64,000 nucleotides of DNA from a virus (IMGVR_UViG_3300009527_000006:1-64000), one strand, 5' to 3'; positions 9,681-53,913 are shown, numbered from the stretch's first letter. Program-made: numbers and translations. The notes: a model not told the origin generated them from the sequence alone.

Positions 9681-9713
9681 TAGGATTTCCTATTAGAAAA
9701 ATTAATCAAAACA

Positions 9714-9720: not shown

Positions 9721-9726
9721 AAAAAT

Positions 9727-11244: not shown

Positions 11245-11263
11245 TTTGAGACAGTAACATGTT

Positions 11264-11297
11264 AAAAGCCCGTATAGAGTTTCTATACGGGCTTTTT
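11264..11297. terminator. Terminator after major capsid gene
   Basis: Perfect 10-bp stem GCCCGTATAG/CTATACGGGC with a 5-nt loop and TTTTT; A4 before the stem allows use from both sides. Confidence 0.9.
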
Positions 11298-11317
11298 ATT
11301 TTCTTTTTATAAAATAA

Positions 11318-13423: not shown

Positions 13424-13424
13424 T

Positions 13425-14039: not shown

Positions 14040-14044
14040 ATTTT

Positions 14045-14051
14045 TATTTAG
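14045..14051 (-). promoter_or_regulatory. Late promoter
   Basis: CTAAATA on the minus strand, 5 nt before the start codon at 14039. Confidence 0.65.
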
Positions 14052-14072
14052 AAAACGACTATAATGTTACAA

Positions 14073-14939
14073 TTATTTCAACAAAGAAAGAATTTTATTC
14101 AATTTTTCTTGTTCAGTCTCTTCATTGCTATTCTTCAATAAAAGAATGTAATATTCTATAGATGTGTATATAGTTTTCAAAATTCGTTTTCTATTATATG
14201 AATTTCTATTAATGTATCTTGCATCATCTATAATATCTCTTTGAACATAATTCATAGTTCTTTTAATATCATGATTATGATGTATTTGATGAGACGTATA
14301 ATCAACACTTTTTATATACTTTCTAAGAAATTCCTGAATAACTGAATTTACTTCTGATTCAGCATTGTAATAACTATCATAATCCATTGCACTGTCTGTT
14401 TTATTTTTATCAACCTTCTTATATAACCTAGTAGTTACATCGTAGTAATCTAACAATGATTCTGTATCAGTTTTTTTATTTTGCGATTTGCTGTCCAATG
14501 GCTCAACTATCTCATGCAAATCCTCTTCAGCATGGGAAAATTCATGGTGAAGAATCTCTAATAGCTCATTAGGTATATATGACTTGAGTTCGTTGAATGA
14601 GTATGACTCATTAGGATCTGTATTTTTGAATATATTGTCAATAATAACATAAACCTTTTCTTGTTCGGAGGAATAAAAAGCAGTCAATTCATCTAAATCA
14701 CATGAATAGCCGTCACCACATTTGAACAGTTTTTTAATAGGATTTGTTATTTTTTTTACAAATTTAGTAACTATTTTATTTCCATTAAATTCTACTGCCA
14801 CTTCATGCCCAGAATATAGTCTATCAGAATTTTGAAAGGATTTTATAATTTCATCCACAATATCACTGAAAAGGATATAATTTTCTACAAAACTTTTTCT
14901 TTCTAATAATATCTTAAAGTGTTTAGAAAATGATAACAT
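14073..14939 (-). CDS. Predicted HExxH zinc metalloprotease
   Basis: A 288-residue protein with ILHHEFSHAEED at about residues 129-140, giving the zinc-binding HExxH motif (His-Glu-Phe-Ser-His) of gluzincin or metzincin-like proteases, followed by acidic residues that could supply the third ligand. The C-terminal third is helical and basic. The start at 14939 is chosen because an ATAAATA late promoter lies 8 nt upstream; a longer frame extends to 15065 but overlaps the lipoprotein gene. No signal peptide. It could process virion proteins or host envelope; the substrate is unknown. Confidence 0.6.
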   Translation of the reverse strand: MLSFSKHFKILLERKSFVENYILFSDIVDEIIKSFQNSDRLYSGHEVAVEFNGNKIVTKFVKKITNPIKKLFKCGDGYSCDLDELTAFYSSEQEKVYVIIDNIFKNTDPNESYSFNELKSYIPNELLEILHHEFSHAEEDLHEIVEPLDSKSQNKKTDTESLLDYYDVTTRLYKKVDKNKTDSAMDYDSYYNAESEVNSVIQEFLRKYIKSVDYTSHQIHHNHDIKRTMNYVQRDIIDDARYINRNSYNRKRILKTIYTSIEYYILLLKNSNEETEQEKLNKILSLLK

Positions 14940-15226
14940 ATAGTAAGTATTTATCTGTGAAAAACATATTGTTGTCTGTCTATTGTGGATTTGCGTTAAT
15001 TTCATGTAATTTGAAGGACACTGGTGCGCGTCCAGAAAATGATGAAATGAAAACTTACACATCATTTCCTAGTTTTCCTGAATTGAAAGAATATTCCAAA
15101 AAACCTATTATAGGAACCCAACAAGGAAATTTTATAGTTACTGATGAATTTTTAGGCAATTCTCTAAAATATAAAAATTACGCAGAACGCATTGAATTGT
15201 GGAAAGGTGCTAATGGAATTAAGTAA
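14930..15226 (+). CDS. Small lipoprotein
   Basis: A 98-residue protein with an N-terminal hydrophobic signal (VKNILLSVYCGFALISC) ending in a lipobox-like LISC, so it should be lipidated and exported. A GTG at 14957 would give a more usual signal-peptide length. The mature part is short and polar. Phage lipoproteins of this size often act as outer-membrane spanin subunits or superinfection-exclusion factors; neither can be chosen here. It diverges from, and slightly overlaps, the metalloprotease gene. Confidence 0.55.
   Translation: MITYSKYLSVKNILLSVYCGFALISCNLKDTGARPENDEMKTYTSFPSFPELKEYSKKPIIGTQQGNFIVTDEFLGNSLKYKNYAERIELWKGANGIK
14948..14954 (-). promoter_or_regulatory. Late promoter deciding the metalloprotease start
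   Basis: ATAAATA on the minus strand, 8 nt before the codon at 14939. Confidence 0.5.
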
Positions 15227-15512
15227 TAGGATGGATACTTTATATCGGCTAATAGCAGAAGCCACTAATAGCGCAGACAAAACGATTTCACAACAACTAG
15301 ATCATATGTCTAGATTGATACAAAATAGTAAAGCTATACTGACTCCGGTTCAAATAAAAGCATCTTCTATTATGAATGAAAAGGATATTCAAAATTTTCT
15401 TTACCATCTAAAAGAAAACTATTCTGCATTAGACAGAATGGAAATGATAATTGAAAAATATCGACAAAAAATAGCTATGCCAAATTATAGAGAAGAACAA
15501 TTTGAAGATTAA
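15213..15512 (+). CDS. Small helical protein, unknown
   Basis: About 99 residues, predicted all-helical (SADKTISQQLDHMSRLIQNS, ALDRMEMIIEKYRQ). Start choice is uncertain: ATG at 15213 overlaps the lipoprotein stop by 14 nt and ATG at 15231 lies just after it, preceded by AGG. It is in the same operon as the lipoprotein and ends at a terminator. No family recognised. Confidence 0.55.
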   Translation: MELSNRMDTLYRLIAEATNSADKTISQQLDHMSRLIQNSKAILTPVQIKASSIMNEKDIQNFLYHLKENYSALDRMEMIIEKYRQKIAMPNYREEQFED

Positions 15513-15513
15513 A

Positions 15514-15547
15514 AAAATCCCGTCCTTAATTAAGGACGGGATTTTTC
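15514..15547. terminator. Bidirectional terminator between convergent units
   Basis: Long palindrome AATCCCGTCCTTAATTAAGGACGGGATT with A-run before and TTTT after, between the plus-strand helical protein and the minus-strand sheath gene. Confidence 0.9.
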
Positions 15548-15559
15548 ATTTTATAGATT

Positions 15560-18500
15560 TTATTCTATGTTGTTAAGGGTCACTCCGCTACGCTCAATTT
15601 GAAGATTGATTAGGACATGCTTGACGGCACGTATCCATTGCACATAATCTGCGACATTGAGAACACCTCTATCAACCAAATCTGGTGGATTGTTGTCTCT
15701 ATCACACTTAACCAAGAAGTCTGCTAAACCGCCATTATCTTTGACAAATTCAAGAATACTAGAATGGTCATTTTTAAGACTAGTTCTAGTATTAATACTG
15801 TTGGGTTTTCCAACAAATCGTCTAGAAGAAGCAATAAGAGCTTTGCCTACCCATAACATACCTCTACGAATATATTCTTCAGAAAGAGCTGATGTTTCTT
15901 TCTGTAGAGTGTTGCTATCATATACAATATATCCTTCTGGGAATTTTACAATAGAATTGGCACCAGCAATAGATATTAAATCTCGGTCCTTTTGTGAAGG
16001 ATTGATTGCTAAATCAACTACATTGCTAAGTTTTCCATTTTCAATACCAAAGGCAGGAGTCCATGCAAAATTTGTAGAATCATTTCTGCAAAGATTTGCT
16101 GCTACAAATGCTGATGGTCCGTACCATCCAAAACTGTCCGTGCTACTATCATAAGTTTTGATCCAGTTTGCTTCAGTAGAAGCAAAATTAGAATTGATCT
16201 TAGACAGCAGATTTTTGAGAGGCGTGTAGATATTTCTTGAGAAAGTAGAATATCTGTTAGAAGGTTGACCTGTAACAGGATCTAAGACTAACTTTTTCTG
16301 TCTTCCTGAAACTTTATAATCTTTTCCATTGATAAAGATTTGACGAAGTGGATCTAGTTTAACTAATGATCCGGCATCTCCTGCGTTTTTGCGAGTATGC
16401 TGCCCAAAGTTAATTAGAACATTTGCCACTGTTGCCCATGCTTCAGCAATATTGCTGAACATATCTGTTCCATTAAAAGATGCCAAGCTATCAGTATCAA
16501 CAAAATAGGTATCATCGAAATAATAGCACACACTTGGGTCAGTTATACAGTCGTCCGCAACGACAGCTTGACGGGTTGACCATATAGTAGACAGTCCTGC
16601 ATCAACAACAATATCAACTGGGAAATCTAATGGGTTTTCTACGCCCATGAGTGCTCTTTCAAGCTTGAGGGGAAGATTTCCAATATCTTTAGTTTTGCAC
16701 AGTTCAAGGGCAACATCCTTACAATGACTATTATAATTGCCTACTCCATACAGTTTATCGCCATAATTTTTAAGAGCCTGCTGAGTATCAAAATTATCAA
16801 ATACTGTTGCGGTTTTTTCTCTATACATTCTTACAGTTTTTTGCGGAACGCCATCTGCTGAATTCCAACAATTATTTTTAGAAAGGTACGGATTTACAAA
16901 CATCTTAACTTTACGAGAAGCATTTACTGCATCTTCAATAAAGACAGAACGAGGAGCACCGCCATATTCGTCAAATACCTTTCTTCCACTATTAAGACTT
17001 CCTATATATTTTTCTACTAATACAGCATCTAATTTATTGATTGTTTCAGTTAAACGTGAAGGACGTAATTTGAAGAGACTGACTGATAGAGAATCATTAT
17101 ATTCTTTATTAGCAAAATTAGGGCCAGACGTTTTTTCAACTATTTCAGAAATGCTATTACGAGTTCCTTGGAAAGTCTCAGAAACTTTAAAATTCCAACG
17201 ATTTTCAGGAACATCTACCCATTCACCAGTAACTCCGGGGCAAAGAGTATCATAATATCCTGCCACAGCAGTTAAATCATTAAAGTCTGTTGCAGGATTG
17301 ACATTTAAGTTATCATTGACTGCAAGGTAGTATCCGCTAAAATCTTCTAGCTGTGCTGCTTTAATTTTATTGACTACTACGATACCTGCTCTTACATCAT
17401 TTTCAACTACATCCAATTCAGGATCTACGTTTGCAAAAGTTCCGCACTTCCAATTAAATTGACCATTTTCTAATAATTCGTATTCTGCTTCTGATAAACT
17501 TCTCGCTACTGGTTCTCCAATAACATAAAAATTAGCATCATTAAGCTGAGCTTCGCCTTCAAGAGGATAAAAGGTATAACGATCTTTTTCAGGAACTTTT
17601 AATCCAAGTTCTTCTACAGTTTGACAAGAAAGACCTACTACTACAGGTGTAGCACAAAAACTGATAAGGCTGTCTTGAGTAGTAGCTGCTAATGCGGAGA
17701 TTTCAACAGAGAAAGTTTCTCCTATTTGGAAATCTCCTAAAGAAGTCAGTCCAGTGTTGTACGTATTAGCAACAGCAGGATCTGCATCAAAGTATTTCAA
17801 AACACCTCCGTCAGAATATGTCCCAAAAATATCTCCAGCACTAACAGGAATACCTGATAGAGTTTGGCCAGTTAAAAATCCTTCAGTGACAGTGAATGAT
17901 GTAGCATAAGGACTGCTTGCAAGATCTACAATCAATCTCTTACCGTCATTAGACAGATTAGATTGATCTTCATCCATAGTAGCATATACGTTACTAAGTT
18001 CGATATAATTGACTACTTCATATGAAATGTTATCTCCGCTAGTTGTAGGGCGAAGTTGCACAACAACTAATTCTTCTTGAGTAGAGTCAGAATCTACTAC
18101 AAATTTGAATCCTGTCAATATAGAATCATAAGAAACAGGGTGATTATGAACATAAAGAGTATTTCCTACTTCATTTTTAGACGAAAGAGGACAATCTAAA
18201 TTTGCACTTCCATAACACAGAGAAGACTTTTTATAATGAACATTGTATAGCTCAGGAAATTCTGTTCTACAAGTATCCTCGTCAATATCACGGAAATAAT
18301 CACATGCAGATGTTTCTACAGCAGAAACACCGATGATAGGATATACTAATGCAGAATAATTATCAGAATAAGAAAATCCTCCACCAGAGCCGAATGGCAT
18401 ACGTGTGAATAACACGTTGCCCGGAGATGTGGTTAGAATTTGTTTAACTGCATTGTGCGAATATCTAGTAGCAGGACACGTAGGTAAACCGAAAGTTTCC

Positions 18501-18667
18501 TCATACTGTTCCATGTTACTTACGAAAGTTGGTTCTTCGGATGGACCTTGTTCAGTAAATCCTGCGATCAAGACAGTTGTTCCGATAGGAGTAGTAATAA
18601 CCTCAGAATTGTCTGTCTCACGCAGTTCTACCGATGGTGAATAATGTATTGGTAAAAATGTTGCCAT
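15560..18667 (-). CDS. 18: Contractile tail sheath protein (T4 gp18 type)
   Basis: A 1035-residue sheath protein, longer than T4 gp18 (659) because of large inserted beta-rich domains in the first two-thirds. Landmarks are the N-terminal beta hairpin region with PIGTTVLIAGFTEQGP near residue 27, FTRMPFG near 86, and the conserved C-terminal domain (RRGMLWVGKALIASSRRFVG, NTRTSL, and the final SGVTLNN strand) that handshakes with neighbouring subunits. It polymerises around the tail tube and contracts on infection. A late promoter precedes it. Confidence 0.92.
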   Translation of the reverse strand: MATFLPIHYSPSVELRETDNSEVITTPIGTTVLIAGFTEQGPSEEPTFVSNMEQYEETFGLPTCPATRYSHNAVKQILTTSPGNVLFTRMPFGSGGGFSYSDNYSALVYPIIGVSAVETSACDYFRDIDEDTCRTEFPELYNVHYKKSSLCYGSANLDCPLSSKNEVGNTLYVHNHPVSYDSILTGFKFVVDSDSTQEELVVVQLRPTTSGDNISYEVVNYIELSNVYATMDEDQSNLSNDGKRLIVDLASSPYATSFTVTEGFLTGQTLSGIPVSAGDIFGTYSDGGVLKYFDADPAVANTYNTGLTSLGDFQIGETFSVEISALAATTQDSLISFCATPVVVGLSCQTVEELGLKVPEKDRYTFYPLEGEAQLNDANFYVIGEPVARSLSEAEYELLENGQFNWKCGTFANVDPELDVVENDVRAGIVVVNKIKAAQLEDFSGYYLAVNDNLNVNPATDFNDLTAVAGYYDTLCPGVTGEWVDVPENRWNFKVSETFQGTRNSISEIVEKTSGPNFANKEYNDSLSVSLFKLRPSRLTETINKLDAVLVEKYIGSLNSGRKVFDEYGGAPRSVFIEDAVNASRKVKMFVNPYLSKNNCWNSADGVPQKTVRMYREKTATVFDNFDTQQALKNYGDKLYGVGNYNSHCKDVALELCKTKDIGNLPLKLERALMGVENPLDFPVDIVVDAGLSTIWSTRQAVVADDCITDPSVCYYFDDTYFVDTDSLASFNGTDMFSNIAEAWATVANVLINFGQHTRKNAGDAGSLVKLDPLRQIFINGKDYKVSGRQKKLVLDPVTGQPSNRYSTFSRNIYTPLKNLLSKINSNFASTEANWIKTYDSSTDSFGWYGPSAFVAANLCRNDSTNFAWTPAFGIENGKLSNVVDLAINPSQKDRDLISIAGANSIVKFPEGYIVYDSNTLQKETSALSEEYIRRGMLWVGKALIASSRRFVGKPNSINTRTSLKNDHSSILEFVKDNGGLADFLVKCDRDNNPPDLVDRGVLNVADYVQWIRAVKHVLINLQIERSGVTLNNIE

Positions 18668-18673
18668 AAATCA

Positions 18674-18680
18674 TATTTAG
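18674..18680 (-). promoter_or_regulatory. Late promoter of the sheath gene
   Basis: CTAAATA on the minus strand, 6 nt before the start at 18667. Confidence 0.7.
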
Positions 18681-18719
18681 ATAATTTCGGCAAAATAAAC
18701 TGTTTAATAAATAGCAAAG

Positions 18720-19028
18720 CTAATTAGTAACTGATTTAGTGATGTATTTTCCTAGAGAAGAAACATACTTTCCTACGTATCTCCACCTAGATACGTCATG
18801 TGCAACCGTAACGGTTTTATCGAAAGATTTAGTATTATCTCTAGAATCTACTATAAGAACTCTATCGGCATTTATAGTAGAACCGTTAATATTTAGGCTT
18901 ACATTTCCTGTGGCCGCAATATAGCCTTCGGTTTTGCTTCCTAAATCTACATCTTTTCCAAAGGGAGTATTGGTGTAACTGCAAGAAAATAATGCCATGC
19001 TTAAAGTTAATAAAAAATAAATTTTCAT
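18720..19028 (-). CDS. Small lipoprotein
   Basis: A 102-residue protein with a signal peptide (MKIYFLLTLSMALFSCS) ending in the lipobox ALFSC, so Cys16 should be lipidated. The mature part has beta-like strands and repeated Thr/Ser/Val. It lies 2 nt downstream of the tail tube gene, so it is expressed late. Roles such as spanin or envelope modification are possible but not shown. Confidence 0.65.
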   Translation of the reverse strand: MKIYFLLTLSMALFSCSYTNTPFGKDVDLGSKTEGYIAATGNVSLNINGSTINADRVLIVDSRDNTKSFDKTVTVAHDVSRWRYVGKYVSSLGKYITKSVTN

Positions 19029-19030
19029 AA

Positions 19031-19642
19031 TTATATTGTTTTGTTCATTTCTACTGAATTGAATTTGAAAGAAAAGTCAGTTTCTATCTGGTCAGTTTCT
19101 TTCTGAGATATATTTAGACTGCCTAGCTTGTTAATAAAACAATCATTAAAGACCCATTCCATAACAGGCCGTTCTCTTTCAAAATTATCCATAGCAATAA
19201 TATTAATTTTACATGAATAATCTCCTATATTCTTAGAATAATTGTAATTTCCATCATTTAATAACTTCAGCCATTCCCATAAGATATAATAGTTATTGTA
19301 TCTATTATCTACTACAAAATTCACTGTTACAGGTGAATATGTCGAACGACCGTGTGAAGATATTGCTAGTGGTGTTCCACGATATTTAAAATCTAATTCT
19401 TGGATAGTTGTCTCTGGAACAGAATAAGCATTTATAGTAAAAATAAACCGATCTTCATCTGCATTTATACATTTTTTCTCAACTAATCTCCTTTTAAGTC
19501 CACAAGGAAGAGTTAATACCAATTCAAAGTTATCCTTCCTAGCATAATTGGTATAACTTTCAGTATCAGATGAATAAGATTGCTGTGGTTCAATGACCTG
19601 ACAAGACTTGTCAAAAACCGGAATTTCTGGAAAAGAACTCAT
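19031..19642 (-). CDS. 19: Tail tube protein (T4 gp19 type)
   Basis: A 203-residue protein with the tail-tube fold signature: YSVPETTIQELDFKYRG in the centre (the strand that forms the inner tube wall) and VNFVVDNRYNNYYILWEWLK after it. It would stack as hexameric rings inside the sheath. Position upstream of the sheath gene is the reverse of T4 order but the pair is still adjacent. A TAAGTA-type late element precedes it. The baseplate protein at 27627 shares the same general fold. Confidence 0.75.
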   Translation of the reverse strand: MSSFPEIPVFDKSCQVIEPQQSYSSDTESYTNYARKDNFELVLTLPCGLKRRLVEKKCINADEDRFIFTINAYSVPETTIQELDFKYRGTPLAISSHGRSTYSPVTVNFVVDNRYNNYYILWEWLKLLNDGNYNYSKNIGDYSCKINIIAMDNFERERPVMEWVFNDCFINKLGSLNISQKETDQIETDFSFKFNSVEMNKTI

Positions 19643-44825: not shown

Positions 44826-45779
44826 TTAGATATTAACATCGTCATCATCATCATCATCCAAAATAAAGTCATTAAGACCATCGTCATCACCATCATCATT
44901 ATCAACAACTCTATTCTGTGTTTGAGAGCGAGAATTTGTCGAGCTATTAACAGATTCATTGGCAATAGGACCATCCTCCCCAAACCAATACTGGTCAATG
45001 AGAGATTTGAGTTCGTCTTCAGACTTTACCGCAGGAACTAATTCCAAAAGATTGTGAACTGAATTTTCAATCCTCTCGTAATCAGAAGGTGACAAATTAT
45101 CAACTGCTTTACTGTCAGCAAATTTTGAAGTAGAATAATTATTCCAATCAGCCTTTGTAGTAACACGGACAATCAGCGACCTTCCTTTAGGTGAAAGATC
45201 AAATGCCTTAATTCCTACATCATCTCCACCTAAAACTTCTTCATCAATAAGTTTCGCTAAATCACTCTTAATTTCACCAGTTTTCTTGTCTATACCAGCA
45301 GAATATTTAAGGACAACTACTGTTCCTATTTTTTGTTGTGCATCAGGATCATCGCCTTCCACTTTGTGCAAGAAGGCATTTACCAATTCATGACGCTGTG
45401 GAATCAATTTGTAACTACGCTTCATAGCATCTTCATCACCACTCTTTTTGGCTTCACTAAAAAGCTTCCATTGTAGTTTGTTGATGTAATCATTTTTTGC
45501 TTGAGTAGGATCTGCATCTGATAGAGATCTTCCTAGATAAATGTATTCAGAAGGAGTTGTCAACGTCTCAAACCCAATATCTTTATAGTTTACAAAAGTT
45601 TGATCATTTCCATCTGAATCTGTGGAACGCAAAAGTCTTACATAGTATTTGCAATTTTTCTTGAATTTCAAGATTCTTGGATCAGAATTTCCAGACCCTC
45701 CACTTTTTTCCTTTTTAAGCTTTTCTGCTTTTGAATTTCTAATTTTTTCTAATGTTTCTTCTAATGTTGGTTTTCTCAT
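44826..45779 (-). CDS. 32: Single-stranded DNA-binding protein (T4 gp32 type)
   Basis: A 317-residue protein (T4 gp32: 301). The basic N-terminal domain (KIRNSKAEKLKKEKSGG) would support cooperative binding, the OB core contains FKKNCKYYVRLLRS, and the C-terminal tail is a run of Asp/Glu (DDDDDDDVNI) used to contact replication partners. A CxxH/C zinc site like that of T4 gp32 is not evident. It coats single-stranded DNA during replication and recombination. It is followed by a strong terminator. Confidence 0.85.
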   Translation of the reverse strand: MRKPTLEETLEKIRNSKAEKLKKEKSGGSGNSDPRILKFKKNCKYYVRLLRSTDSDGNDQTFVNYKDIGFETLTTPSEYIYLGRSLSDADPTQAKNDYINKLQWKLFSEAKKSGDEDAMKRSYKLIPQRHELVNAFLHKVEGDDPDAQQKIGTVVVLKYSAGIDKKTGEIKSDLAKLIDEEVLGGDDVGIKAFDLSPKGRSLIVRVTTKADWNNYSTSKFADSKAVDNLSPSDYERIENSVHNLLELVPAVKSEDELKSLIDQYWFGEDGPIANESVNSSTNSRSQTQNRVVDNDDGDDDGLNDFILDDDDDDDVNI

Positions 45780-45835
45780 AATATATTATTGTTCTTATTG
45801 TTCTTATTCTAGATAGAATATCTATCCGAAAGTAT

Positions 45836-46459
45836 TTATAGTTTATTTGCCAGTATAACCTGATTTATAGTTTTTTTAAGCAATTTACTGGCAGAATATT
45901 TTGTATGTAAAAAATTTAATTGATCTTTCGTATCACCAAGATAAAGCTCATATTCTTCTGGTGGAAGATTAAGAAGTTTGGCAAAACCCTCTAGATAGAA
46001 AACGGTATATAGGTTAGTGCTTTTATTTTTAAGATGAAGAAGATAATCTGGCTGATGAACAGTAGCATAGTTTAGGTAGTCTGTCAACTTTATTTTCTTT
46101 TCTTTACAGAAATCCAGCACAAATTTTACGCATTCTGTAGTATATCTAATATTATCAGGATGATCGGTATTTTCAGATACTAGTAAGTTTACATAGCTAG
46201 AACATACTAGCATACACTTAACTGTAGAAAAATAATTCAAAGAAAAAAACTTTTTATCTTTATAAATTTTATAGGGTGCGATAAAATATGTTCTTGACAT
46301 TAGGTGAGGATGTTTTTGAAAAAACTTTTCAAGTTTTTCAAGAGCACCCTTTTTAGAATCATCTAATTTTTCATATTTTAGCAAACTTTTACATGGGCGA
46401 TCATTTGCTTCAGCAAGAGCCTCTAGGAAAAGATTGTAAATTTTTAATTTATTGTCCAT
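45836..46459 (-). CDS. Unknown early-type protein
   Basis: A 207-residue helical protein with several Cys and Tyr residues (MLVCSSYVNLLVSENTDHPD). The start at 46459 is chosen because a well-spaced sigma70-like promoter lies just upstream; its first codons overlap the end of the 46449-46931 gene by 11 nt. No family recognised. Confidence 0.6.
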   Translation of the reverse strand: MDNKLKIYNLFLEALAEANDRPCKSLLKYEKLDDSKKGALEKLEKFFQKHPHLMSRTYFIAPYKIYKDKKFFSLNYFSTVKCMLVCSSYVNLLVSENTDHPDNIRYTTECVKFVLDFCKEKKIKLTDYLNYATVHQPDYLLHLKNKSTNLYTVFYLEGFAKLLNLPPEEYELYLGDTKDQLNFLHTKYSASKLLKKTINQVILANKL

Positions 46460-46931
46460 TGTTGCGACTATACAGAAATTTATCAATATTATCAAGACTT
46501 TCAGGACCAACTAGTTCTCCACTTATAGCGATAGAATGGCCGTCTTTGAGCAAAGTTACTAATGACTCAACCACATCACTTGATAAAAAATCAAATTTAG
46601 CTCCTAGAAAAAATAAATATATTTGTTCTAAAGTTACAAGACCGTCTTTCCATTTAATATAATAAGAACAGAAATCAGTATATTTTACGAGAATATCTAG
46701 ATAAGAATAAGCATTACTGTCGTTGTCTAAAATATTACTACAATCTATATGATCCTGATTTAAAAATTTTTCTTTACTAGAAAGGTAAGTTCCGCAATAA
46801 TAAACAATTTCAGTATCTTTTGACACCGTATTTGTAAAAAATTGTAGCGTTAGTGCAAATGATTCTAACCAAGTATCAAAATCGTAGTCAGGGCAGAGAG
46901 TTTTAATTTTCATAATAATAGAATACAGCAC
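46449..46931 (-). CDS. Unknown protein flanking the cassette array
   Basis: A 160-residue (154 from the alternative start at 46913) helical protein with aromatic and Cys residues. It is the last ordinary phage gene on the left of the cassette array; its start lies 68 nt from the first recombination site. Similar composition to the downstream gene suggests relatedness, but I see no clear alignment. Confidence 0.6.
   Translation of the reverse strand: MLYSIIMKIKTLCPDYDFDTWLESFALTLQFFTNTVSKDTEIVYYCGTYLSSKEKFLNQDHIDCSNILDNDSNAYSYLDILVKYTDFCSYYIKWKDGLVTLEQIYLFFLGAKFDFLSSDVVESLVTLLKDGHSIAISGELVGPESLDNIDKFLYSRNNGQ
46467..46495 (-). promoter_or_regulatory. Sigma70-like promoter
   Basis: Minus strand: TTGATA, 17-nt spacer, TATAGT, 7 nt before the start at 46459; located inside the end of the upstream gene. 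Confidence 0.65.
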
Positions 46932-46998: not shown

Positions 46999-47087
46999 GG
47001 CGAACAAAACGGATGCAGACAACGCTCTATAAGTTGTTTGTCACATTCATAGTCTTTTATTCGCGTGTCTGATCCGAAGCGTTCGGG
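46999..47087 (+). repeat. attC-like site 1
   Basis: R'' GGCGAAC (46999-47005) and R' GTTCGGG (47081-47087). Inner stem: CGGAT[G]CAGACA[A]CGC (47010-47024) pairs with GCGTGTCTGATCCG (47063-47076); bracketed G and A are unpaired. Central region is nearly identical to sites 3 and 6. Confidence 0.85.
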
Positions 47088-47113: not shown

Positions 47114-47554
47114 ATGTATAATAGACCGTCTAATTCTGAAGTTGCGGAAATTACTGGATACAATCTTCCTATAGAAGAAATCTCAGAATTTCCCACAGCT
47201 AAACAGCAACAAGAAGGAGGTTATATTTTGAAGTATATTGGCCGCATCTCAGATACTTGTGATACCTTCTTGAAAACTGCACATGGTAAGGTAGTTGCTA
47301 TAATATTGCTTATCCATGGAATCATCGGATTTGCTAGAGATGCATTTGATGGTGCAACATACATCTATAATGCATCTGCTCCTATGCTTGAAAGGATTGA
47401 GACTTTTGTATTTTCTCATAAGAACCAAGAAGTCTCTCCCGAATACCTAGTATTGATCCCAAAAGAAACGCACCTGACACTGCCCGTAAAAGATTGGGCT
47501 GATTTTCCGGCAGGAACCCAATTTGCGCCAGCCAGTAGCATAGATTACACATAG
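47114..47554 (+). CDS. Cassette 1 plus-strand gene, single-helix membrane protein
   Basis: A 146-residue protein starting 33 nt after R' of site 1. One predicted transmembrane helix (VVAIILLIHGIIGFA, about residues 61-75) with polar flanks and a C-terminal beta-like region. The leader is A/C-rich without a ribosome-binding site. It overlaps the minus-strand gene of the same cassette by 173 nt, so one of the two may be shorter than drawn. No family recognised. Confidence 0.55.
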   Translation: MYNRPSNSEVAEITGYNLPIEEISEFPTAKQQQEGGYILKYIGRISDTCDTFLKTAHGKVVAIILLIHGIIGFARDAFDGATYIYNASAPMLERIETFVFSHKNQEVSPEYLVLIPKETHLTLPVKDWADFPAGTQFAPASSIDYT

Positions 47555-47633
47555 CCAACGATCCAAAATATATAAATGCAAATATTTCACAACAAACCCA
47601 TACTTTATTCAAATAATTATATTTATTAGACAT
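47382..47633 (-). CDS. Cassette 1 minus-strand gene, small membrane protein
   Basis: An 83-residue protein with a long hydrophobic stretch (ending FAFIYFGSLAMCNLCYWLA) and a second one (LLRAVSGAFLLGSILGI). I keep it despite the overlap because an exact TATAAATA late promoter lies 6 nt before its ATG, and its start is 37 nt from the next attC, the same position as minus-strand genes in cassettes 2, 4 and 5. Confidence 0.5.
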   Translation of the reverse strand: MSNKYNYLNKVWVCCEIFAFIYFGSLAMCNLCYWLAQIGFLPENQPNLLRAVSGAFLLGSILGIRERLLGSYEKIQKSQSFQA

Positions 47634-47639: not shown

Positions 47640-47647
47640 TATTTATA
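47640..47647 (-). promoter_or_regulatory. Late promoter inside cassette 1
   Basis: Exact TATAAATA on the minus strand between the gene start at 47633 and attC site 2. Confidence 0.7.
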
Positions 47648-47669
47648 AAGACTTTAGACTAAAACAAGA

Positions 47670-47759
47670 CCCGAACAAAGAAACTGGAGACAACAGCTCA
47701 GCATAGTTATTCTCCTATATTAGTTCTGTGTTCGCTGTGTCTCAGTTTAGACGTTCGCC
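47670..47759 (+). repeat. attC-like site 2
   Basis: R'' CCCGAAC (47670-47676), R' GTTCGCC (47753-47759). Inner stem AAACT[G]GAGACA[A]CAGC pairs with GCTGTGTCTCAGTTT; same two unpaired bases as site 1 although the paired bases differ, so the stem covaries. Nearly identical to site 5. Confidence 0.85.
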
Positions 47760-47783
47760 TAACAACACACAGCCTCTACTACA

Positions 47784-48056
47784 ATGTATAAAACTCAGCC
47801 TAAATATCGGGCCATCATTCGTTTCTCCTTGGATAAGGATGAGAGTTCAAAGTTTCGCAACTCTGTTATTAGAAAACTTAGAAAAGCTAAATTCACCAAC
47901 ACAAATAAGACTGGTTCTTGGGAGACTCCATCCGCAGATTTATCTATTATTCAGTCATTAGTCTGCACCGTTATGAACGAACTAGGTAAAGTAACGAATG
48001 ACGACGGAAAGCCCGTAACATTGGACCATATGTGGATGTGCATAGATAAAGTTTAA
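47784..48056 (+). CDS. Cassette 2 plus-strand gene, small basic protein
   Basis: A 90-residue protein starting 24 nt after R' of site 2, leader A/C-rich. Basic first half (SSKFRNSVIRKLRKAKFT) and a helical acidic end. Its stop overlaps the stop of the convergent gene by 4 nt. No family recognised; a nucleic-acid-binding role is possible from charge only. Confidence 0.65.
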   Translation: MYKTQPKYRAIIRFSLDKDESSKFRNSVIRKLRKAKFTNTNKTGSWETPSADLSIIQSLVCTVMNELGKVTNDDGKPVTLDHMWMCIDKV

Positions 48057-48223
48057 TCTTCTTCGTTCCACCTAGGGTCATCATCTGACCATTCATTCCA
48101 TCCAGATTCGATTTCGTCTGAGTCTGAATTGATAACTATTTTTGTTTTAGATTCAGTATGACACCCACAGTTGCCACATACGCCGCTAATAACGACTTCT
48201 ATAGGTTGAGAATTATTTTTCAT
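48053..48223 (-). CDS. Cassette 2 minus-strand gene, Cys-cluster microprotein
   Basis: A 56-residue protein. SGVCGNCGCHTESK near residues 13-26 has three Cys and a His, enough for a metal knot, followed by an acidic, Trp-rich tail (SGWNEWSDDDPRWNEED). ATAAATA lies 7 nt before the ATG, and the start is 39 nt from attC site 3. Convergent with, and 4-nt overlapping, the plus-strand gene. Confidence 0.65.
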   Translation of the reverse strand: MKNNSQPIEVVISGVCGNCGCHTESKTKIVINSDSDEIESGWNEWSDDDPRWNEED

Positions 48224-48230
48224 AATCAGC

Positions 48231-48237
48231 TATTTAT
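48231..48237 (-). promoter_or_regulatory. Late promoter inside cassette 2
   Basis: ATAAATA on the minus strand, 7 nt before the start at 48223. Confidence 0.6.
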
Positions 48238-48261
48238 TGGCAGCTCTTGCTATAAACAAGA

Positions 48262-48350
48262 GGCGAACAAAACGGATGCAGACAACGCTCTATAAGTTTT
48301 ATGTCACATTCAGAGTTTAGTATTCGCGTGTCTGATCCGAGACGTTCGTC
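48262..48350 (+). repeat. attC-like site 3
   Basis: R'' GGCGAAC (48262-48268), R' GTTCGTC (48344-48350); inner stem identical to site 1 with unpaired G and A. The end of the methyltransferase reading frame runs into this site. Confidence 0.85.
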
Positions 48351-48937
48351 TTATGAAATGCCACCCAGTGAGTCTGCGCTTTCTTGCCGCTACGGTGGCC
48401 GTAGAGCGGGCGTTCTGGCGTGAGTGCCAGCACTTCGCGGAGCGGGATTTCAGCCTCGCACCATTTGAAGATCATCGTTCCATTCACTTTCAGGACACGG
48501 AAGCATTCAGCGAATCCCGCCCGCAGGTCGTCGCGCCATGTCGCATCCAGAAGCCCGAAGTCGAAGGCGATGCGTCCCGTTGCCCCGGCTCCTTTATGGA
48601 AGTGCGGCGGATCGAATACCACATGCCAGAACGACTCATCAGGGAACGGCATGTTTCGGAAGTCCACCACCATATCAGGCGCGACGGTTTTCGGGGTGCG
48701 CCCGATGGTTCCCGGCGTTCCCACGTCGATGATTCGCGTGCCTTGGCGTTTGTCCACATACAGGGCGCGGTCATCCTGTTTATCGAACCAGAACATTCTG
48801 GTTGAGCAGCACGCATCCAATACCGGAGGCAAAGACGAACAAGTCGCTGCATGCAACCCGCTTTCTGCGTGCTGTTGGCGCGTTAATGTGAAGAGGTCAT
48901 CCATAGGTGTATCGGTGTATTGTGTCAGCGGGTGCAT
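48317..48937 (-). CDS. Cassette 3 gene, SAM-dependent methyltransferase (G+C-rich)
   Basis: A 206-residue class I methyltransferase. The SAM-binding region is PPVLDACCSTRMFWFDK (residues 37-53), VDFRNMPFPDESFWHVVFDPPHF gives the catalytic-type DPPHF at 109-113, and FRVLKVNGTMIFKW and GHRSGKKAQTHWVAFHK follow. Relatives occur in enterobacterial prophages and plasmids and probably methylate nucleic acid. It runs opposite to the cassette orientation, starts inside site 4 and ends inside site 3; ATG at 48904 is an alternative start. Its base composition is far richer in G+C than anything around it, a clear sign of transfer. Confidence 0.8.
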   Translation of the reverse strand: MHPLTQYTDTPMDDLFTLTRQQHAESGLHAATCSSLPPVLDACCSTRMFWFDKQDDRALYVDKRQGTRIIDVGTPGTIGRTPKTVAPDMVVDFRNMPFPDESFWHVVFDPPHFHKGAGATGRIAFDFGLLDATWRDDLRAGFAECFRVLKVNGTMIFKWCEAEIPLREVLALTPERPLYGHRSGKKAQTHWVAFHKTNVSDQTREY

Positions 48938-48953
48938 GAGCTAGGCGTTCGCC
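48834..48953 (+). repeat. attC-like site 4 (divergent)
   Basis: R'' GACGAAC (48834-48840) matches R' GTTCGTC of site 3 at the other end of its cassette; its own R' is GTTCGCC (48947-48953). Inner stem GCT[G]CATGCA[A]CCCGCT pairs with AGCGGGTGCATGAGC. A different sequence and a longer central region (120 bp site), yet the same unpaired G and A six pairs apart. Confidence 0.85.
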
Positions 48954-48962
48954 TAAAAACCA

Positions 48963-49217
48963 ATGCACTCATCACAAACTAATTCGCAGATGATAATCGC
49001 GCACATGCTAGCCAATGATAACGGAGCCATTTTTCATTTTGAGGACTATAGATTCAATGTTCGTCCTGAAGATCGAGTCACTTCCAGCAATTGGCCTAGT
49101 GGTATAACATTGCACATTAGACTTTCTAGCACAGGGCTGAGCGCAGCTTCTTACGAGAACGAGACAGTGCTCGGTGAATATGTGGATGAAAGAGGAACTC
49201 CCATTTTGCCTTATTAG
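48963..49217 (+). CDS. Cassette 4 plus-strand gene, unknown
   Basis: An 84-residue protein starting 9 nt after R' of site 4. Strand-rich (GAIFHFEDYRFNVRPED, GITLHIRLSSTG), with acidic C terminus. Its stop overlaps the convergent stop by 4 nt. No family recognised. Confidence 0.6.
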   Translation: MHSSQTNSQMIIAHMLANDNGAIFHFEDYRFNVRPEDRVTSSNWPSGITLHIRLSSTGLSAASYENETVLGEYVDERGTPILPY

Positions 49218-49453
49218 GAATTATTACTTGGATCATTCGGAATTGCATGGCCGAATCTCAGCACTTCACCATTGTCATATAGATAGGCCATTCCACGAAT
49301 TCCAAAAGGACCATTATACTTACCTTTCTCATTCTGTATTTTTATGTTCTCGTGCATAGTCCATCTTCGCCAGATTCCAATAGCTTCATCATACGGAAGT
49401 GCCTCTGGATCTGGGTATTTGGTTAAGTCTATTGGGTTGTCTAAATTTAACAT
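49214..49453 (-). CDS. Cassette 4 minus-strand gene, unknown
   Basis: A 79-residue protein with DPEALPYDEAIGIWRRWTMH and FGIRGMAYLYDNGEVLRFG, consistent with a small beta-sheet domain. The ATG at 49453 is preferred to an in-frame TTG two codons earlier. ATAAGTA, a weaker late-type element, lies 9 nt upstream; the start is 41 nt from attC site 5. Confidence 0.6.
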   Translation of the reverse strand: MLNLDNPIDLTKYPDPEALPYDEAIGIWRRWTMHENIKIQNEKGKYNGPFGIRGMAYLYDNGEVLRFGHAIPNDPSNNS

Positions 49454-49462
49454 ATTCAAAGC

Positions 49463-49469
49463 TACTTAT
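49463..49469 (-). promoter_or_regulatory. Late-type promoter variant inside cassette 4
   Basis: ATAAGTA on the minus strand, 9 nt before the start at 49453. One mismatch to ATAAATA. Confidence 0.4.
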
Positions 49470-49493
49470 TCGTAGTCAAATGCTAAAACAAGA

Positions 49494-49583
49494 GGCGAAC
49501 AAAGAAACTGGAGACAACAGCTCAGCATAGCTATTCTCCTATATTAGTTCTGTGTTCGCTGTGTCTCAGTTTAGATGTTCGCC
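49494..49583 (+). repeat. attC-like site 5
   Basis: R'' GGCGAAC (49494-49500), R' GTTCGCC (49577-49583). Inner stem as site 2, with the same unpaired G and A; the whole site differs from site 2 at only a few bases. Confidence 0.85.
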
Positions 49584-49598
49584 CAACCTCACCACACC

Positions 49599-49784
49599 AT
49601 GTCTATTATAAAGAAACCTAGTTCGTGCGTATTTTGCAGATCTGCACTGATTAAAGGTCCGATTAAGAGAGATCGTAATTTAAATGAAACTATTGAAATG
49701 AAGAGTGTCGTTTATATTTGTGAGCAATGTAATTTTGTTCACGAATTTAATATTCATACTACTAAAAAATCTAAGATGAAGTAG
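49599..49784 (+). CDS. Cassette 5 plus-strand gene, zinc-ribbon protein
   Basis: A 61-residue protein with two Cys pairs, SSCVFCRS near residue 10 and YICEQCNFVH near residue 42, a classic small zinc ribbon with basic ends. The ATG at 49599 lies 15 nt after R' of site 5; an earlier in-frame ATG lies inside the site. It could bind nucleic acid or a protein partner. Convergent overlap with the next gene is 14 nt. Confidence 0.65.
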   Translation: MSIIKKPSSCVFCRSALIKGPIKRDRNLNETIEMKSVVYICEQCNFVHEFNIHTTKKSKMK

Positions 49785-49935
49785 TAGACACGAAACATGC
49801 AAGCCCATCACATTGAGCATTCCACATTTCATCCAGAATTCTATCATTATTTTCCTGTTCTTCTTTGGAAAGTCTCATCCAATGACACTGCTCCACTTCT
49901 AACCATTCACGTATCTTTGCTTTTATCCATTGCAT
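49771..49935 (-). CDS. Cassette 5 minus-strand gene, small acidic helical protein
   Basis: A 54-residue protein (MQWIKAKIREWLEVEQCHW at the N terminus), amphipathic helix rich in Trp and Glu, then LDEMWNAQCDGLACF. ATAAGTA lies 9 nt upstream and the start is 40 nt from attC site 6. No family recognised. Confidence 0.6.
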   Translation of the reverse strand: MQWIKAKIREWLEVEQCHWMRLSKEEQENNDRILDEMWNAQCDGLACFVSTTSS

Positions 49936-49944
49936 AGTAGTCAA

Positions 49945-49951
49945 TACTTAT
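49945..49951 (-). promoter_or_regulatory. Late-type promoter variant inside cassette 5
   Basis: ATAAGTA on the minus strand, 9 nt before the start at 49935. Confidence 0.4.
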
Positions 49952-49974
49952 GAAGCTAATAAACAGAAACAAGA

Positions 49975-50063
49975 GGCGAACAAAACGGATGCAGACAACG
50001 CTCTATAAGTTTTATGTCACATTCATAATTTTATATTCGCGTGTCTGATCCGAGACGTTCGGG
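49975..50063 (+). repeat. attC-like site 6
   Basis: R'' GGCGAAC (49975-49981), R' GTTCGGG (50057-50063); inner stem identical to sites 1 and 3. The R' triplet GGG is matched by CCC of site 7, more than 4.3 kb away, the two ends of one enlarged cassette. Confidence 0.85.
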
Positions 50064-50086: not shown

Positions 50087-50257
50087 ATGAATGAATCTAC
50101 GTTAGTTGATTGCGCTAAATGGTTATATGAAAAGCAGCAAGAGAACCTAAAAGCCGGAAAGAATCTACTTTGGCAGCCACATATAATAACCGTTCTTTTA
50201 AACTTACAAAAATCTAAAGTCATACTTTTAAGATATAAACTCTCGATTTTTTGTTAA
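50087..50257 (+). pseudogene. Cassette 6 gene, probably interrupted by the IS607-like element
   Basis: Begins 23 nt after R' of site 6 with the A/C-rich leader typical of the array (CACCACAATG). Residues 1-45 read as a normal helical protein (STLVDCAKWLYEKQQENLKA); the frame then runs into the end of tnpB and stops after 56 codons. The simplest view is that a cassette gene was cut by insertion near 50,215-50,225; its 3' part may be the fragment at 54156-54350. Confidence 0.5.
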
Positions 50258-51446
50258 ATTCCTGCTTCACAGACGGGCTAACCAAAGTCGTTTCCGACAA
50301 TGGTGAACTCCCATCTCCACAGGCTTGAATTCCCGAAGAACTTTCGGTATAAATTTGTTTCAGATTCAAACTCGCATTTAAATCTCTATCTATTTTCATA
50401 TCACACATTTTACATTCAAATACTCGGTCTGTCAACTTCAAATCTGAATTTTTCCATCCGCAACATGAACATAATTTAGAACTGGCGTAGAAAGTATCTG
50501 CGAAGACAACTTTTCTATTATTCCATTTCGCTTTATATTCAATTTGGCGACGAAATTCATAAAGTCCTACGTCACTGATAGCCTGAGCCAAACAGTGATT
50601 TTTCAACATATTGCTTACTTTCAAATCTTCCAACACAATTACATTGTTTTTCTGTATTATGTTAGAAGTGATTCTATGTAAGCAATCTTTACGAATATTT
50701 GATATGTGATAATGTAATTTTGCTAACTTTTGTTTTGCTTTTCCATAATTTTTACTTCCTTTTTTCTTTCTTGATAATTGTTTTTGTTTGCGTTTTAGTC
50801 TCTTGAGATTTTTCTTTAATGCTTTTGGATTTTCATAAGTTGTCCCATCTGAGCAAGTAGCTAAAGTTTTAATACCTAAATCAATTCCTACTACCTCATT
50901 CTTGGCGTTAGAATGCTCTCTGTCAGGTGTCTCTACTTGAACTGATACAAACCACTTACCCGCACGTTTCGAGACTGTAGCAGACAGTATTTTACAATCT
51001 GTTGGGATGTAATCTTTCTCGGATAATTTGAGTTTGTCGATTCGTGGTAGCTTAATGTAATCAGATTCAACTGAAATCGCGCCGTCTAGTCTGAAGGATT
51101 GCTTTTCGTTTTTCTTAGATTTAAATTTTGGAAATCCTTTCTTACCTTTAACTTTCTTTTTACAACGAGTGAAGAAATTTTGAAATGCTTTATCACAATC
51201 TCTTAACGCATTTTGTGGAGAAGTCTTGCTTGAATTATACATCCAAGGAACATCTGTCTGTTTTAGCTTGTTTAATTCTCTATGAATCTCAATAGCATTT
51301 TGAATTTTCTCTTTCTTATCAAATTGTTCTTTCTTTTTAGCTAATGCCCAATTATATGCCCATCTAGCGCAACCAATATGCTGTAATAACAAGGTTTGTT
51401 GCTTGTTATTTACATCTAGCTGAACTTTATAGGCGCGGAGAATCAT
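50220..51446 (-). CDS. tnpB: TnpB RNA-guided nuclease-type transposon protein
   Basis: A 408-residue TnpB. The start at 51446 (MILRAYKVQLD) matches the usual family start; the codons upstream belong to the methyltransferase overlap. RuvC residues are intact: Asp189 (GIDLGIKTLAT), Glu273 (VLEDLKV) and Asp355 (DRDLNASLNL). A zinc ribbon (CSCCGWKN ... FECKMC) lies between the last two. TnpB proteins cut DNA with a guide RNA made from the 3' end of their gene, so such an RNA is expected across roughly 50,200-50,400. Its ATG overlaps the methyltransferase stop (ATGA). Confidence 0.9.
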   Translation of the reverse strand: MILRAYKVQLDVNNKQQTLLLQHIGCARWAYNWALAKKKEQFDKKEKIQNAIEIHRELNKLKQTDVPWMYNSSKTSPQNALRDCDKAFQNFFTRCKKKVKGKKGFPKFKSKKNEKQSFRLDGAISVESDYIKLPRIDKLKLSEKDYIPTDCKILSATVSKRAGKWFVSVQVETPDREHSNAKNEVVGIDLGIKTLATCSDGTTYENPKALKKNLKRLKRKQKQLSRKKKGSKNYGKAKQKLAKLHYHISNIRKDCLHRITSNIIQKNNVIVLEDLKVSNMLKNHCLAQAISDVGLYEFRRQIEYKAKWNNRKVVFADTFYASSKLCSCCGWKNSDLKLTDRVFECKMCDMKIDRDLNASLNLKQIYTESSSGIQACGDGSSPLSETTLVSPSVKQEFNKKSRVYILKV

Positions 51447-52308
51447 TTTAATCTTTCTAAACAAATATCATAATACTCTTTTTCTTTTTCGATGCCGATA
51501 AACTGACGATTGAGATTTTTGGCGGCAACCAGAGTTGTTCCCGAACCAGCAAAAGGATCGAACACCAAATCCTCTTTATTTGAGATAGACTTCACCAAGT
51601 CTTCCATCATATTCAACGGTTTTTCACATGGATGTTTGTCTTTTCTTTGCGAGACTATTTCATATTCAATTACATCTTCAAATGAAGATAGCGATAACGA
51701 ATCAAATTTTCGTTTGGATAATTTAATACCTAAATCTCCTCTAATTTGGGAAGAAATTTTGGAGATGGAAAGCATCTACCACATTCCCAATTTGATACTT
51801 GACCACCATTATTAACGTTTCCATAAGCACCCAATATTTCAGTAAGCTCTTTTACCGATACCCCCTTAGAAATGCGGGCATTCTTAATGTCATTTGGATA
51901 AGAATCTTGTGAAAAATAAATTATTCTTTCTGATGCTGGATATGGTCGTCTAAGGGAATTTTTATTACACTTATTTTTCCAACCCTCACTCCCCTTATTT
52001 GGAAAAGTTTTCTTCCACACAATTTCAGATTGGAAATTGAAATATTGATTTATCAGGACGGCTAAAAATGGAGCCAATGATGGCTTACAAAAAACGTAAC
52101 CACTACAAGTATTTTTCATCTTCGGTTTAAGAATTTTGAAAAAATAATCAAACCATTTTAAAAATTCAGTATCGTTATCATGTTCATTGTCCCAAGTGTG
52201 CTTTTTAACATTGTGATAAGGTGGATCGGTGACAAGGATATCCACGCTTCCATCTGGAATGTCCTTCATCAATTCTAAACAGTCGCCATGCCAAATTTCT
52301 TGTTTCAT
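51443..52308 (-). pseudogene. DNA methyltransferase (beta class), broken by a one-base frameshift
   Basis: The N-terminal frame (52308-51730) has GDCLELMKDIPDGSVDILV then TDPPYHN (residues 27-33), a target-recognition region and an HTH-like insert (KELTEILGAYGNVNN). The C-terminal frame (to 51443) has HPCEKP and FDPFAGSGTTLVAAKNL. Motif IV before motif I marks the beta class of N6-adenine or N4-cytosine enzymes. The frames join at LEEI/LGIKL, near 51,731-51,740, where one extra T in a T3 run restores a continuous protein. Either a real mutation or a homopolymer error. Confidence 0.8.
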
Positions 52309-53336
52309 TCCATCGCCTCCTTTTCTTTCTTTTTACGATTCTGTGAGCTAATCATACCCAATCCTTCTCTAATTAGATACAGGCGACCAGTCGAAGTTTT
52401 TAACTCTTTTGCTACGCCTCTCCAAGTTTGATGTTTATCAAACAAATCGTGCAGTTGTTTTACTGTAATATCTGAACGCTTTTTCCGTAAAATTTGCTGA
52501 GATAGACACTCTAAATATAATTCATACTTTCTATCCAAATACACTTTAGCGTTTGAGTATATTGGTCTTAATATGTTTTGAACTAACTCGACCCCCGCCG
52601 AAGATATGCAGCAAGTTTCTGAATCTCCCTCTCCATATTTTGATAGGATTTTTGCGCGACATTTGCTATACGAAAGAATATACTCTTGAAATTTCTCAAT
52701 AACAAGCCTATTTCCAACAAGATTAATTGTCCACACCCAAGATTTTTTATATTTGGGTTCAAGCGTTTTAGAAATGCAGCCATCACCGTCAAATATGCCT
52801 CGCCAAAAATGACAGTGTAAATCCTTTGGAATTAAATTTAACGGAGGAATAAAGCTAAAAGATTTTCTCGGTAAAATACCAAATTTAGCCAAATCATTGC
52901 ATATTTTTCTGTTACCAATTACAATTCGACACGACTCAAATATTTTACTATTATCACCCCCTTCAAAAGAGGGCGAACTTCTACATATTTTAATTGGATG
53001 CGCCGAACGGCAAAATTTCTTAAATTTTTCTAAGTGCAACAAATCTGACTTTTTTAAACCTATATTCAATCCTCCATAATCGGTTACGTTGCCGTCGGCG
53101 GCAATGAATCCAAGCCAATAAGCCTTATCTTCTGTGTCAATTTTTTCAAAAATAGAATCGTCAATAGTATATTTAGAGTTATTTTTAATTTTGATACCCC
53201 TTTTTTTGGCTTCTCTGGTGCAGCATTCGCTACTTAATCCGTAAACAGCCGCCGCCCTTTGTGCAGAATCCCCGTTTACATATAGATTAATCATTCCGTC
53301 CTTTTCTTCTTGTGTAATAGTGCGTCTCATATACAT
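52305..53336 (-). CDS. LAGLIDADG homing endonuclease
   Basis: A 343-residue protein with two LAGLIDADG helices: WLGFIAADG (residues 74-82) and FWRGIFDGDG (177-186), each ending in the catalytic Asp. The N-terminal 50 residues (RRTITQEEKDGMINLYVNG) and C-terminal 50 (VKQLHDLFDKHQTWRGVAKELK) look like HTH DNA-binding units. It would make a staggered cut at a long target. It overlaps the methyltransferase start by 4 nt and lies 16 nt after the recombinase stop. ATG at codon 3 is an alternative start. Confidence 0.88.
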   Translation of the reverse strand: MYMRRTITQEEKDGMINLYVNGDSAQRAAAVYGLSSECCTREAKKRGIKIKNNSKYTIDDSIFEKIDTEDKAYWLGFIAADGNVTDYGGLNIGLKKSDLLHLEKFKKFCRSAHPIKICRSSPSFEGGDNSKIFESCRIVIGNRKICNDLAKFGILPRKSFSFIPPLNLIPKDLHCHFWRGIFDGDGCISKTLEPKYKKSWVWTINLVGNRLVIEKFQEYILSYSKCRAKILSKYGEGDSETCCISSAGVELVQNILRPIYSNAKVYLDRKYELYLECLSQQILRKKRSDITVKQLHDLFDKHQTWRGVAKELKTSTGRLYLIREGLGMISSQNRKKKEKEAME

Positions 53337-53352
53337 ATATTTACACTAAAAA

Positions 53353-53913
53353 TCACTCTTTTTCACAAAAATCTGATAAAACTTCATCATCGGGATAGAT
53401 TTCTGTAGTCACCTCTTCCACCTTTTCAATTCTAACTCCATAGGAATTAAAATAAGACAAAAGATAATTAAAACAAAATCTTGATAATCTATCTTTATGC
53501 TCAATTAAGACTACATCAATTTCTTTCTTTTCTACTAACTCAAAAAGTTTCTGCAATTTCTTGCGATTGTCGTTCATTCCTGAACCAACTTCATCAAAAA
53601 CAGCAACAATAGAATAACCACGCTTCAATGCCTCTGTAGTCATTCTGCCGACTTGTCTTTCTAAATCACCTTTAGTCTTCTGTTCATGTGAACTAACGCG
53701 ACAATAGATAGCCACACGCTTACCATCTGTTACTTTAACAGGTTCTACATAGATTCCCGCCAATTTCTCAATATCGGCTCTGTAATAGCGTCTATGACCA
53801 CCTTTTGTATGGAATGGCGTTAATTTGCCTTCTCGCTCCCAATTTCTAAGAGTTTCGTCGGAAACGCCTAAAATGGACGCAGCATCACTAATTGATAGAA
53901 TCTTTTTATCCAT
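53353..53913 (-). CDS. tnpA: IS607-type serine recombinase (TnpA) with MerR HTH
   Basis: A 186-residue protein. Residues 5-50 form a MerR-like helix-turn-helix (SISDAASILGVSDETLRNWE, HRRYYRAD). The resolvase domain has AIYCRVSSHEQ with catalytic Ser74 (or 75), VFDEVGSGMNDNRKKLQKL and IEHKDRLSRF. It should cut and rejoin circular transposon DNA. The C terminus ends shortly after the RLSRF block and seems to lack the final helix of many relatives, next to the inserted endonuclease gene, so activity is not certain. Confidence 0.85.
   Translation of the reverse strand: MDKKILSISDAASILGVSDETLRNWEREGKLTPFHTKGGHRRYYRADIEKLAGIYVEPVKVTDGKRVAIYCRVSSHEQKTKGDLERQVGRMTTEALKRGYSIVAVFDEVGSGMNDNRKKLQKLFELVEKKEIDVVLIEHKDRLSRFCFNYLLSYFNSYGVRIEKVEEVTTEIYPDDEVLSDFCEKE

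Follow-up and report, generated by a model that had tools for sequence, protein, structure and literature searches.

The origin of integron cassettes and of their attC sites is a general question on which cassettes carried by phages bear. CALINs are known in phages (Qi et al. 2023, PMC9892861), and that study describes attC arrays without an integrase in virulent-type phages, a methyltransferase cassette, a myovirus whose attC sites enclose several ORFs, and phage attC sites that were used by IntI1 when assayed. Besides attC clusters in virulent phages, promoter-bearing bacterial cassettes are already known: Vibrionaceae superintegrons include cassettes with their own promoter, some of them antisense to the array, and in Vibrio cholerae an antisense cassette promoter silences an upstream gene (PMC11014356). 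The array described here shares the lack of an integrase and the methyltransferase cassette with the phage CALINs, attC families A and B and the layout and leader of the plus-strand gene with the chromosomal integrons of the Verrucomicrobiaceae family, and a TATAAATA-type box without a -35 element, a gp55 homologue and use of both strands with the gp55/gp33/gp45 late promoters of T4 (PMC2988020, PMC7892883). It differs from all of these systems. No phage promoter class, fixed promoter-attC spacing or convergent minus-strand genes were found in the available part of PMC9892861, and a probable Verrucomicrobiaceae-like host distinguishes the present phage from the phages covered there. The Vibrionaceae promoter cassettes are gene-less and carry bacterial promoters (PMC11014356), whereas the promoters described here are of the phage late type and are predicted to drive a gene of the same cassette. 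Verrucomicrobiaceae-family cassettes mostly consist of a single plus-strand gene, have 53% G+C and contain no late box near attC. In T4 the late box mostly lies 24-28 nt upstream of the start codon together with a Shine-Dalgarno (SD) sequence, whereas here the consensus is reduced to TAARTA, the boxes lie inside mobile cassettes, and the distance to the start codon is 5-9 nt, which predicts near-leaderless mRNAs; a late promoter at the start codon is a departure from T4. The open-licence papers searched contained no description of cassettes with late promoters of phage type or of a constant distance between promoter and attC.

The stretch of DNA that was analyzed (the window, 64,000 nt) is part of a virus record of 92,025 nt. 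The phage is a T4-type myovirus: PHROG profiles identified a T4-type gene set (gp23, gp18, gp19, gp21, gp17, gp43, gp41, uvsX, uvsY, and gp32) with structural and packaging genes (major head protein, terminase, sheath, tube, and head protease) and genes for replication and related functions (DNA polymerase, DnaB-like helicase, primase, UvsX, UvsY, and single-strand binding protein), and gave further matches to Dda, an SbcD-like nuclease and a late sigma factor. The latter is a gp55-like homologue encoded at positions 71716-72453 (phrog_234, E 3e-16). A search for relatives of the phage via gp32, the major capsid protein and UvsX returned a single weak match for gp32, one contig identical to the left end of the window, and none for UvsX. 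The phage recurs in the IMG/VR collection as this 19.5-kb contig, which is 100% identical to positions 1-19282 of the window and ends short of the array. A cluster of ten tRNA genes is located on the minus strand at 1780-3844.

The array contains six attC sites, all of which display complementary R''/R' ends and a GTT cleavage core. The left boundary is formed by attC0 (46999-47087, R'' GGCGAAC and R' GTTCGGG, an L''/L' stem with an extra base in L'', fold z -3.0), followed by attC1 (47670-47759), attC2 (48262-48350), attC3 (48834-48953), attC4 (49494-49583), and attC5 (49975-50063, bottom-strand fold z -4.9). The ends are GGCGAAC-like and GTTCGSS-like, and pairing of the inner arms leaves one additional base in L'', from which the orientation of the array is taken to be the plus strand. 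The bottom strands fold into stems with extrahelical single bases in five out of six sites (z -2.2 to -4.9); the fold of attC3, a member of a different and longer family, is weaker (z only -1.2). Sites 0, 2, and 5 belong to family A and sites 1 and 4 to family B (attC4 is 94% identical to attC1 over 110 nt); the cassette bodies differ nonetheless. These are genuine attC sites, and their recombination by an integron integrase is predicted. The 92-kb record, which may be incomplete, contains no tyrosine recombinase (no PF00589 match) and the array is thus an attC cluster without an integrase; no intI gene adjoining the array, as in a complete integron, was found in the record. An Rfam search gave no match in the array.

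The original prediction stated that in cassettes 1, 2, 4, and 5 a minus-strand gene starts shortly before the next attC site with a T4-type late box 6-9 nt upstream, and this arrangement was confirmed. On the minus strand, the box of cassette 1 (TATAAATA, 47640-47647) is separated by 6 nt from the ATG at 47633, that of cassette 2 (AATAAATA, 48231-48238, with TAAATA at 48231-48236) by 7 nt from the ATG at 48223, that of cassette 4 (AATAAGTA, 49463-49470, with TAAGTA at 49463-49468) by 9 nt from the ATG at 49453, and that of cassette 5 (CATAAGTA, 49945-49952, with TAAGTA at 49945-49950) by 9 nt from the ATG at 49935. The gap between start codon and attC is 36, 38, 40, and 39 nt, respectively, and the late box begins 24, 25, 25, and 24 nt from the outer border of R'' in attC, a regularity that the original prediction does not mention. 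The exact T4 8-mer is present, as predicted, in cassette 1 and in no other cassette. The variant TAAGTA is a minority form that makes up 14% of the other late boxes of the phage, including that of the tail tube gene.

With 8 copies in the window against an expectation of 12.5, the 8-mer TATAAATA on its own shows no enrichment, and the signal is therefore one of position and not of frequency. The comparison with random A+T-rich sequence proposed alongside the prediction was made with a first-order Markov model of the same cassettes, in which the combined box and ATG pattern was scored within 70 nt. The pattern is expected by chance with P 0.007-0.010 per cassette if it may lie anywhere in the 70 nt and with P 0.0004-0.001 at an offset of 23-26 nt. 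The box occupies its fixed place in all four A+T-rich cassettes, and the pattern is absent from cassette 3 and, in all five cassettes, from the plus strand. Cassettes 2 and 4 differ in attC family and in their genes, yet their promoter segments can be aligned (P 0.0005), which suggests that a promoter-attC unit was reused; the remaining pairs are not alignable (P 0.12 or more).

The same box marks late genes throughout the phage. It was found 5-9 nt upstream of the first ATG in 39 out of 118 ORFs and at 1 out of 484 internal ATGs, and it is almost absent 13-45 nt upstream of the first ATGs of these 118 ORFs. In the whole genome, the pattern TAARTA-N5..9-ATG was counted 45 times at the start of an ORF and six times at other places. 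The box precedes four out of five annotated structural or packaging genes, compared with none out of 11 genes of the replication or early class (Fisher P 0.003), and the boxed genes include those for the major capsid protein, head protease, sheath, and tube. No -35 element was seen at the 42 other late boxes, and T4 late promoters lack this element as well (PMC2988020). Together with the gp55-like sigma factor, these data bear out the predicted T4-late type of the boxes and support the view that the cassettes carry the phage's own late-gene start signal. Several unboxed genes (e.g., uvsX) have instead a TTGAAA-type -35 and a TATAGT -10 element that ends 2-11 nt from the ATG. The sigma70-type -10 element and the box thus occupy the same place, which argues that the box acts like a class of promoter and not like a signal for ribosomes, and that short leaders look to be general in this phage. 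With the 8-base T4 box numbered from -13 (PMC2988020), a box 5-9 nt from the ATG implies that the late mRNAs should be nearly leaderless, with a leader of about 0-4 nt. Elements of the -10 type directly before the start codon were noted in late and several early genes (at 246 and 9727, and on the minus strand at 18667, 57809, and 39555), a placement that predicts leaderless or nearly leaderless mRNAs, unlike in T4 and the Prochlorococcus phage P-HM2. The same analysis of a 40-kb stretch of T4 placed most boxes at a distance of 24-28 nt from the start codon and gave SD-like motifs at 24 out of 37 genes, compared with 5 out of 118 ORFs in the present phage, and in P-HM2 most boxes lie 20-50 nt from the start codon.

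Cassettes 1, 2, 4, and 5 each contain a plus-strand and a minus-strand ORF. In cassette 1, the codon usage of the plus ORF (47114-47554, 146 aa) supports coding (wrong-frame P 0.003), and the ORF has no Pfam match and no relative among phages. The minus ORF (47382-47633, 83 aa) overlaps it by 173 nt and displays no coding signal in the codon-usage test; it is doubtful and may not be a gene, and the predicted minus-strand genes are therefore supported by codon usage in cassettes 2, 4, and 5 but not in cassette 1. In cassette 2, the plus ORF (47784-48056, 90 aa; neither phages nor 68 host-family genomes gave a relative) converges with a minus ORF (48053-48223, 56 aa) that contains a CxxC motif and has phage-like codon usage (wrong-frame P 0.0003), and the 3' ends overlap by 4 nt. 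Cassette 4 is organized alike, with a plus ORF (48963-49217, 84 aa) and a minus ORF (49214-49453, 79 aa, wrong-frame P 0.005; no relative in phage records) that overlap by 4 nt at their stops. Cassette 5 contains a plus ORF with two CxxC motifs (49602-49784, 60 aa), recognized from the ORF list and codon usage, and a minus ORF (49771-49935, 54 aa, wrong-frame P 0.009). Phage-like codon usage characterizes the minus ORFs of cassettes 2, 4, and 5 and their plus ORFs less so. None of the minus ORFs has a Pfam match above the cut-off. Searches for homologues of cassette proteins gave none in phages (three proteins) and none that was convincing in the 68 host-family genomes (two proteins).

Cassette 3 carries a phage-type methyltransferase gene on the minus strand (48317-48937, 206 aa) that starts inside attC3 and ends inside attC2. 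At the DNA level it is about 67-73% similar to methyltransferase genes from phages of Gordonia and Corynebacterium. The gene has 57% G+C and the cassette 58%; the cassette looks like a recent arrival without a late box of its own.

Among 68 genomes of a single Verrucomicrobiaceae-type family, 40 contain the family A attC sequence. Across the phylum it was found in only five out of 387 genomes, including three members of that family. Judging from this attC family match, the hosts of the phage are probably Verrucomicrobiaceae-like bacteria. An IntI above the cut-off is encoded in 24 out of the 68 host-family genomes. A total of 56 cassettes were read in host-family arrays for comparison. The plus gene of phage cassettes 1, 2, 4, and 5 directly follows the preceding attC, as in the host layout, but the distance from the plus stop to attC is 115-276 nt in these four cassettes compared with a median of 22 nt in the host cassettes (n = 56, P 0.005), most of which have one plus-strand gene. 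The extra 3' space is filled by the convergent minus ORF and the box. The four phage cassettes have 35-40% G+C and the host cassettes 47-57% (P 0.0004). None of the 56 host cassettes has a late box near attC (a single late-like pattern lies 250 nt from attC), and the extra 3' gene, the box and the phage-like composition are missing from nearly all of them.

The promoter belongs, as predicted, to the mobile cassette, where it lies between the minus gene and the attC of that cassette; host cassettes lack it. Two further parts of the original prediction hold in a narrower form. The claim that the cassettes evolved in phages is supported, indirectly, as adaptation in the phage by the lower G+C content, the three minus ORFs with phage-like codon usage and the near-identical attC sites on unrelated cassette bodies. 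The claim that bacterial cassettes usually lack promoters has to be narrowed in view of the promoter-bearing cassettes, antisense ones included, of the Vibrionaceae (PMC11014356). Overall, the earlier interpretation is partly supported.

The most probable explanation is that host-type cassettes have been adapted to, and partly built in, the phage, each with its own late promoter from which expression is predicted. Cassettes of the Verrucomicrobiaceae type would have entered the lineage of a T4-type phage, where they now form an attC cluster without an integrase, and would then have been remodelled. Four of them would have gained a minus gene, putatively of phage origin, and a gp55-class promoter (TAARTA) beside their own attC, with the box about one helical turn from the start and a minus mRNA that is predicted to be near-leaderless, with a leader of 1-4 nt. 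Two cleavage points flank the box, minus gene and attC, which would move together under a host integrase; with all three in one excisable unit, the predicted mobilization by a host IntI would transfer the cassette without uncoupling the gene from its promoter. The plus gene, with its host-type layout and no phage promoter, would have to return to a bacterial integron before it could be expressed from Pc, and the predicted late transcription of the minus strand would oppose it. If this is correct, the expression of a cassette would be independent of its position in the array, host integrases could shuffle phage late genes, and a phage that joins its own promoter class to attC would be a site of cassette formation or refitting.

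The main role of the minus promoters might alternatively be antisense silencing of the plus genes, with the small minus ORFs being incidental. Each minus promoter faces its convergent plus ORF, silencing of a neighbour by an antisense cassette promoter is known (PMC11014356), and a coding signal is lacking in the minus ORF of cassette 1, but the phage-like codon usage of the other three minus ORFs and the two that end exactly at the plus stop with a 4-nt overlap make this explanation rather unlikely. It is also unlikely that the minus genes use ordinary host-type sigma70 promoters, in which the conserved TCTTGTTT beside attC would act as the -35 element and the AT box as the -10 element. A TTGTTT does lie 14-16 nt from a -10-like hexamer in all four cassettes, and bacterial cassettes with antisense promoters are on record (PMC11014356). 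However, the matches are poor (3/6 to TTGACA and 4-5/6 to TATAAT, compared with 9-11/12 at the phage's own sigma70-type sites), a scan gave no qualifying sigma70 site at the four places, CAAGAG adjoins only 3 out of 64 host attC sites, and the AT box is missing from host cassettes.

The position of the box directly at the start codon would also fit a start-codon context or ribosome signal, rather than a promoter, in a host without strong Shine-Dalgarno pairing. The scarcity of SD-like motifs in the phage and the weak SD of the one host-family genome sampled agree with such a signal. In a check for leaderless usage, that genome also showed a mild TANNNT excess 7-10 nt from the ATG. Replication genes also need ribosomes, yet they lack the box and several carry a sigma70 -10 element in its position, and the box corresponds to the core of the gp55 consensus in a phage that encodes a gp55 homologue; a translational role is accordingly considered quite improbable. 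The least credible possibility is that the phage passively took over part of a host integron and that the boxes arose by chance in A+T-rich DNA. The attC families match those of the host and cassette 3 is host-like in G+C, but the probability of a box by chance is about 1% per cassette, and far less with the fixed offset, and nearly all 56 host cassettes lack the composition, the extra 3' gene and the box.

The adaptation of host-type cassettes in the phage, which remains the preferred reading, is based on a promoter-attC arrangement seen in one phage. A search of IMG/VR for other phage arrays with the same promoter-attC spacing, which had been suggested as a check, found none with the patterns used: a 14-mer attC-arm pattern gave random matches and full-arm patterns gave none. 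A broader attC pattern returned many single attC sites, mostly on G+C-rich contigs, with no late box in the cassettes that were read; 20 attC-bearing records were checked for a T4-type capsid gene and none had one. Sites of the same broad type are present on about twenty contigs of IMG/VR, most of them rich in G+C, which may in part be phages whose hosts have integrons and in part chromosomal sequence that was misclassified. It is conceivable, although on balance doubtful, that T4-type phages of integron-rich bacteria keep a cassette pool of their own, based on a composite of attC and late promoter with fixed spacing that would render any gene joined to it mobile by way of the host integrase and late-expressed, the plus gene serving the host integron and the minus gene the phage.

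Two observations concern the flanks of the array. The predicted minus-strand late promoters of the array are directed into a gp32-like gene cluster (44826-46931), and read-through from these promoters could lead to late transcription of the cluster. On the other side, the start of a sixth cassette (plus-strand ORF at 50087-50257) adjoins a TnpB ORF (50220-51446), and the cassette is apparently interrupted by a TnpB-bearing insertion. The region 50220-53913 encodes on the minus strand, in series, TnpB (OrfB_IS605), a DNA methyltransferase, an endonuclease-like ORF and, identified by eye, an IS607-type serine recombinase, and looks like a transposon with cargo that inserted into the sixth cassette.
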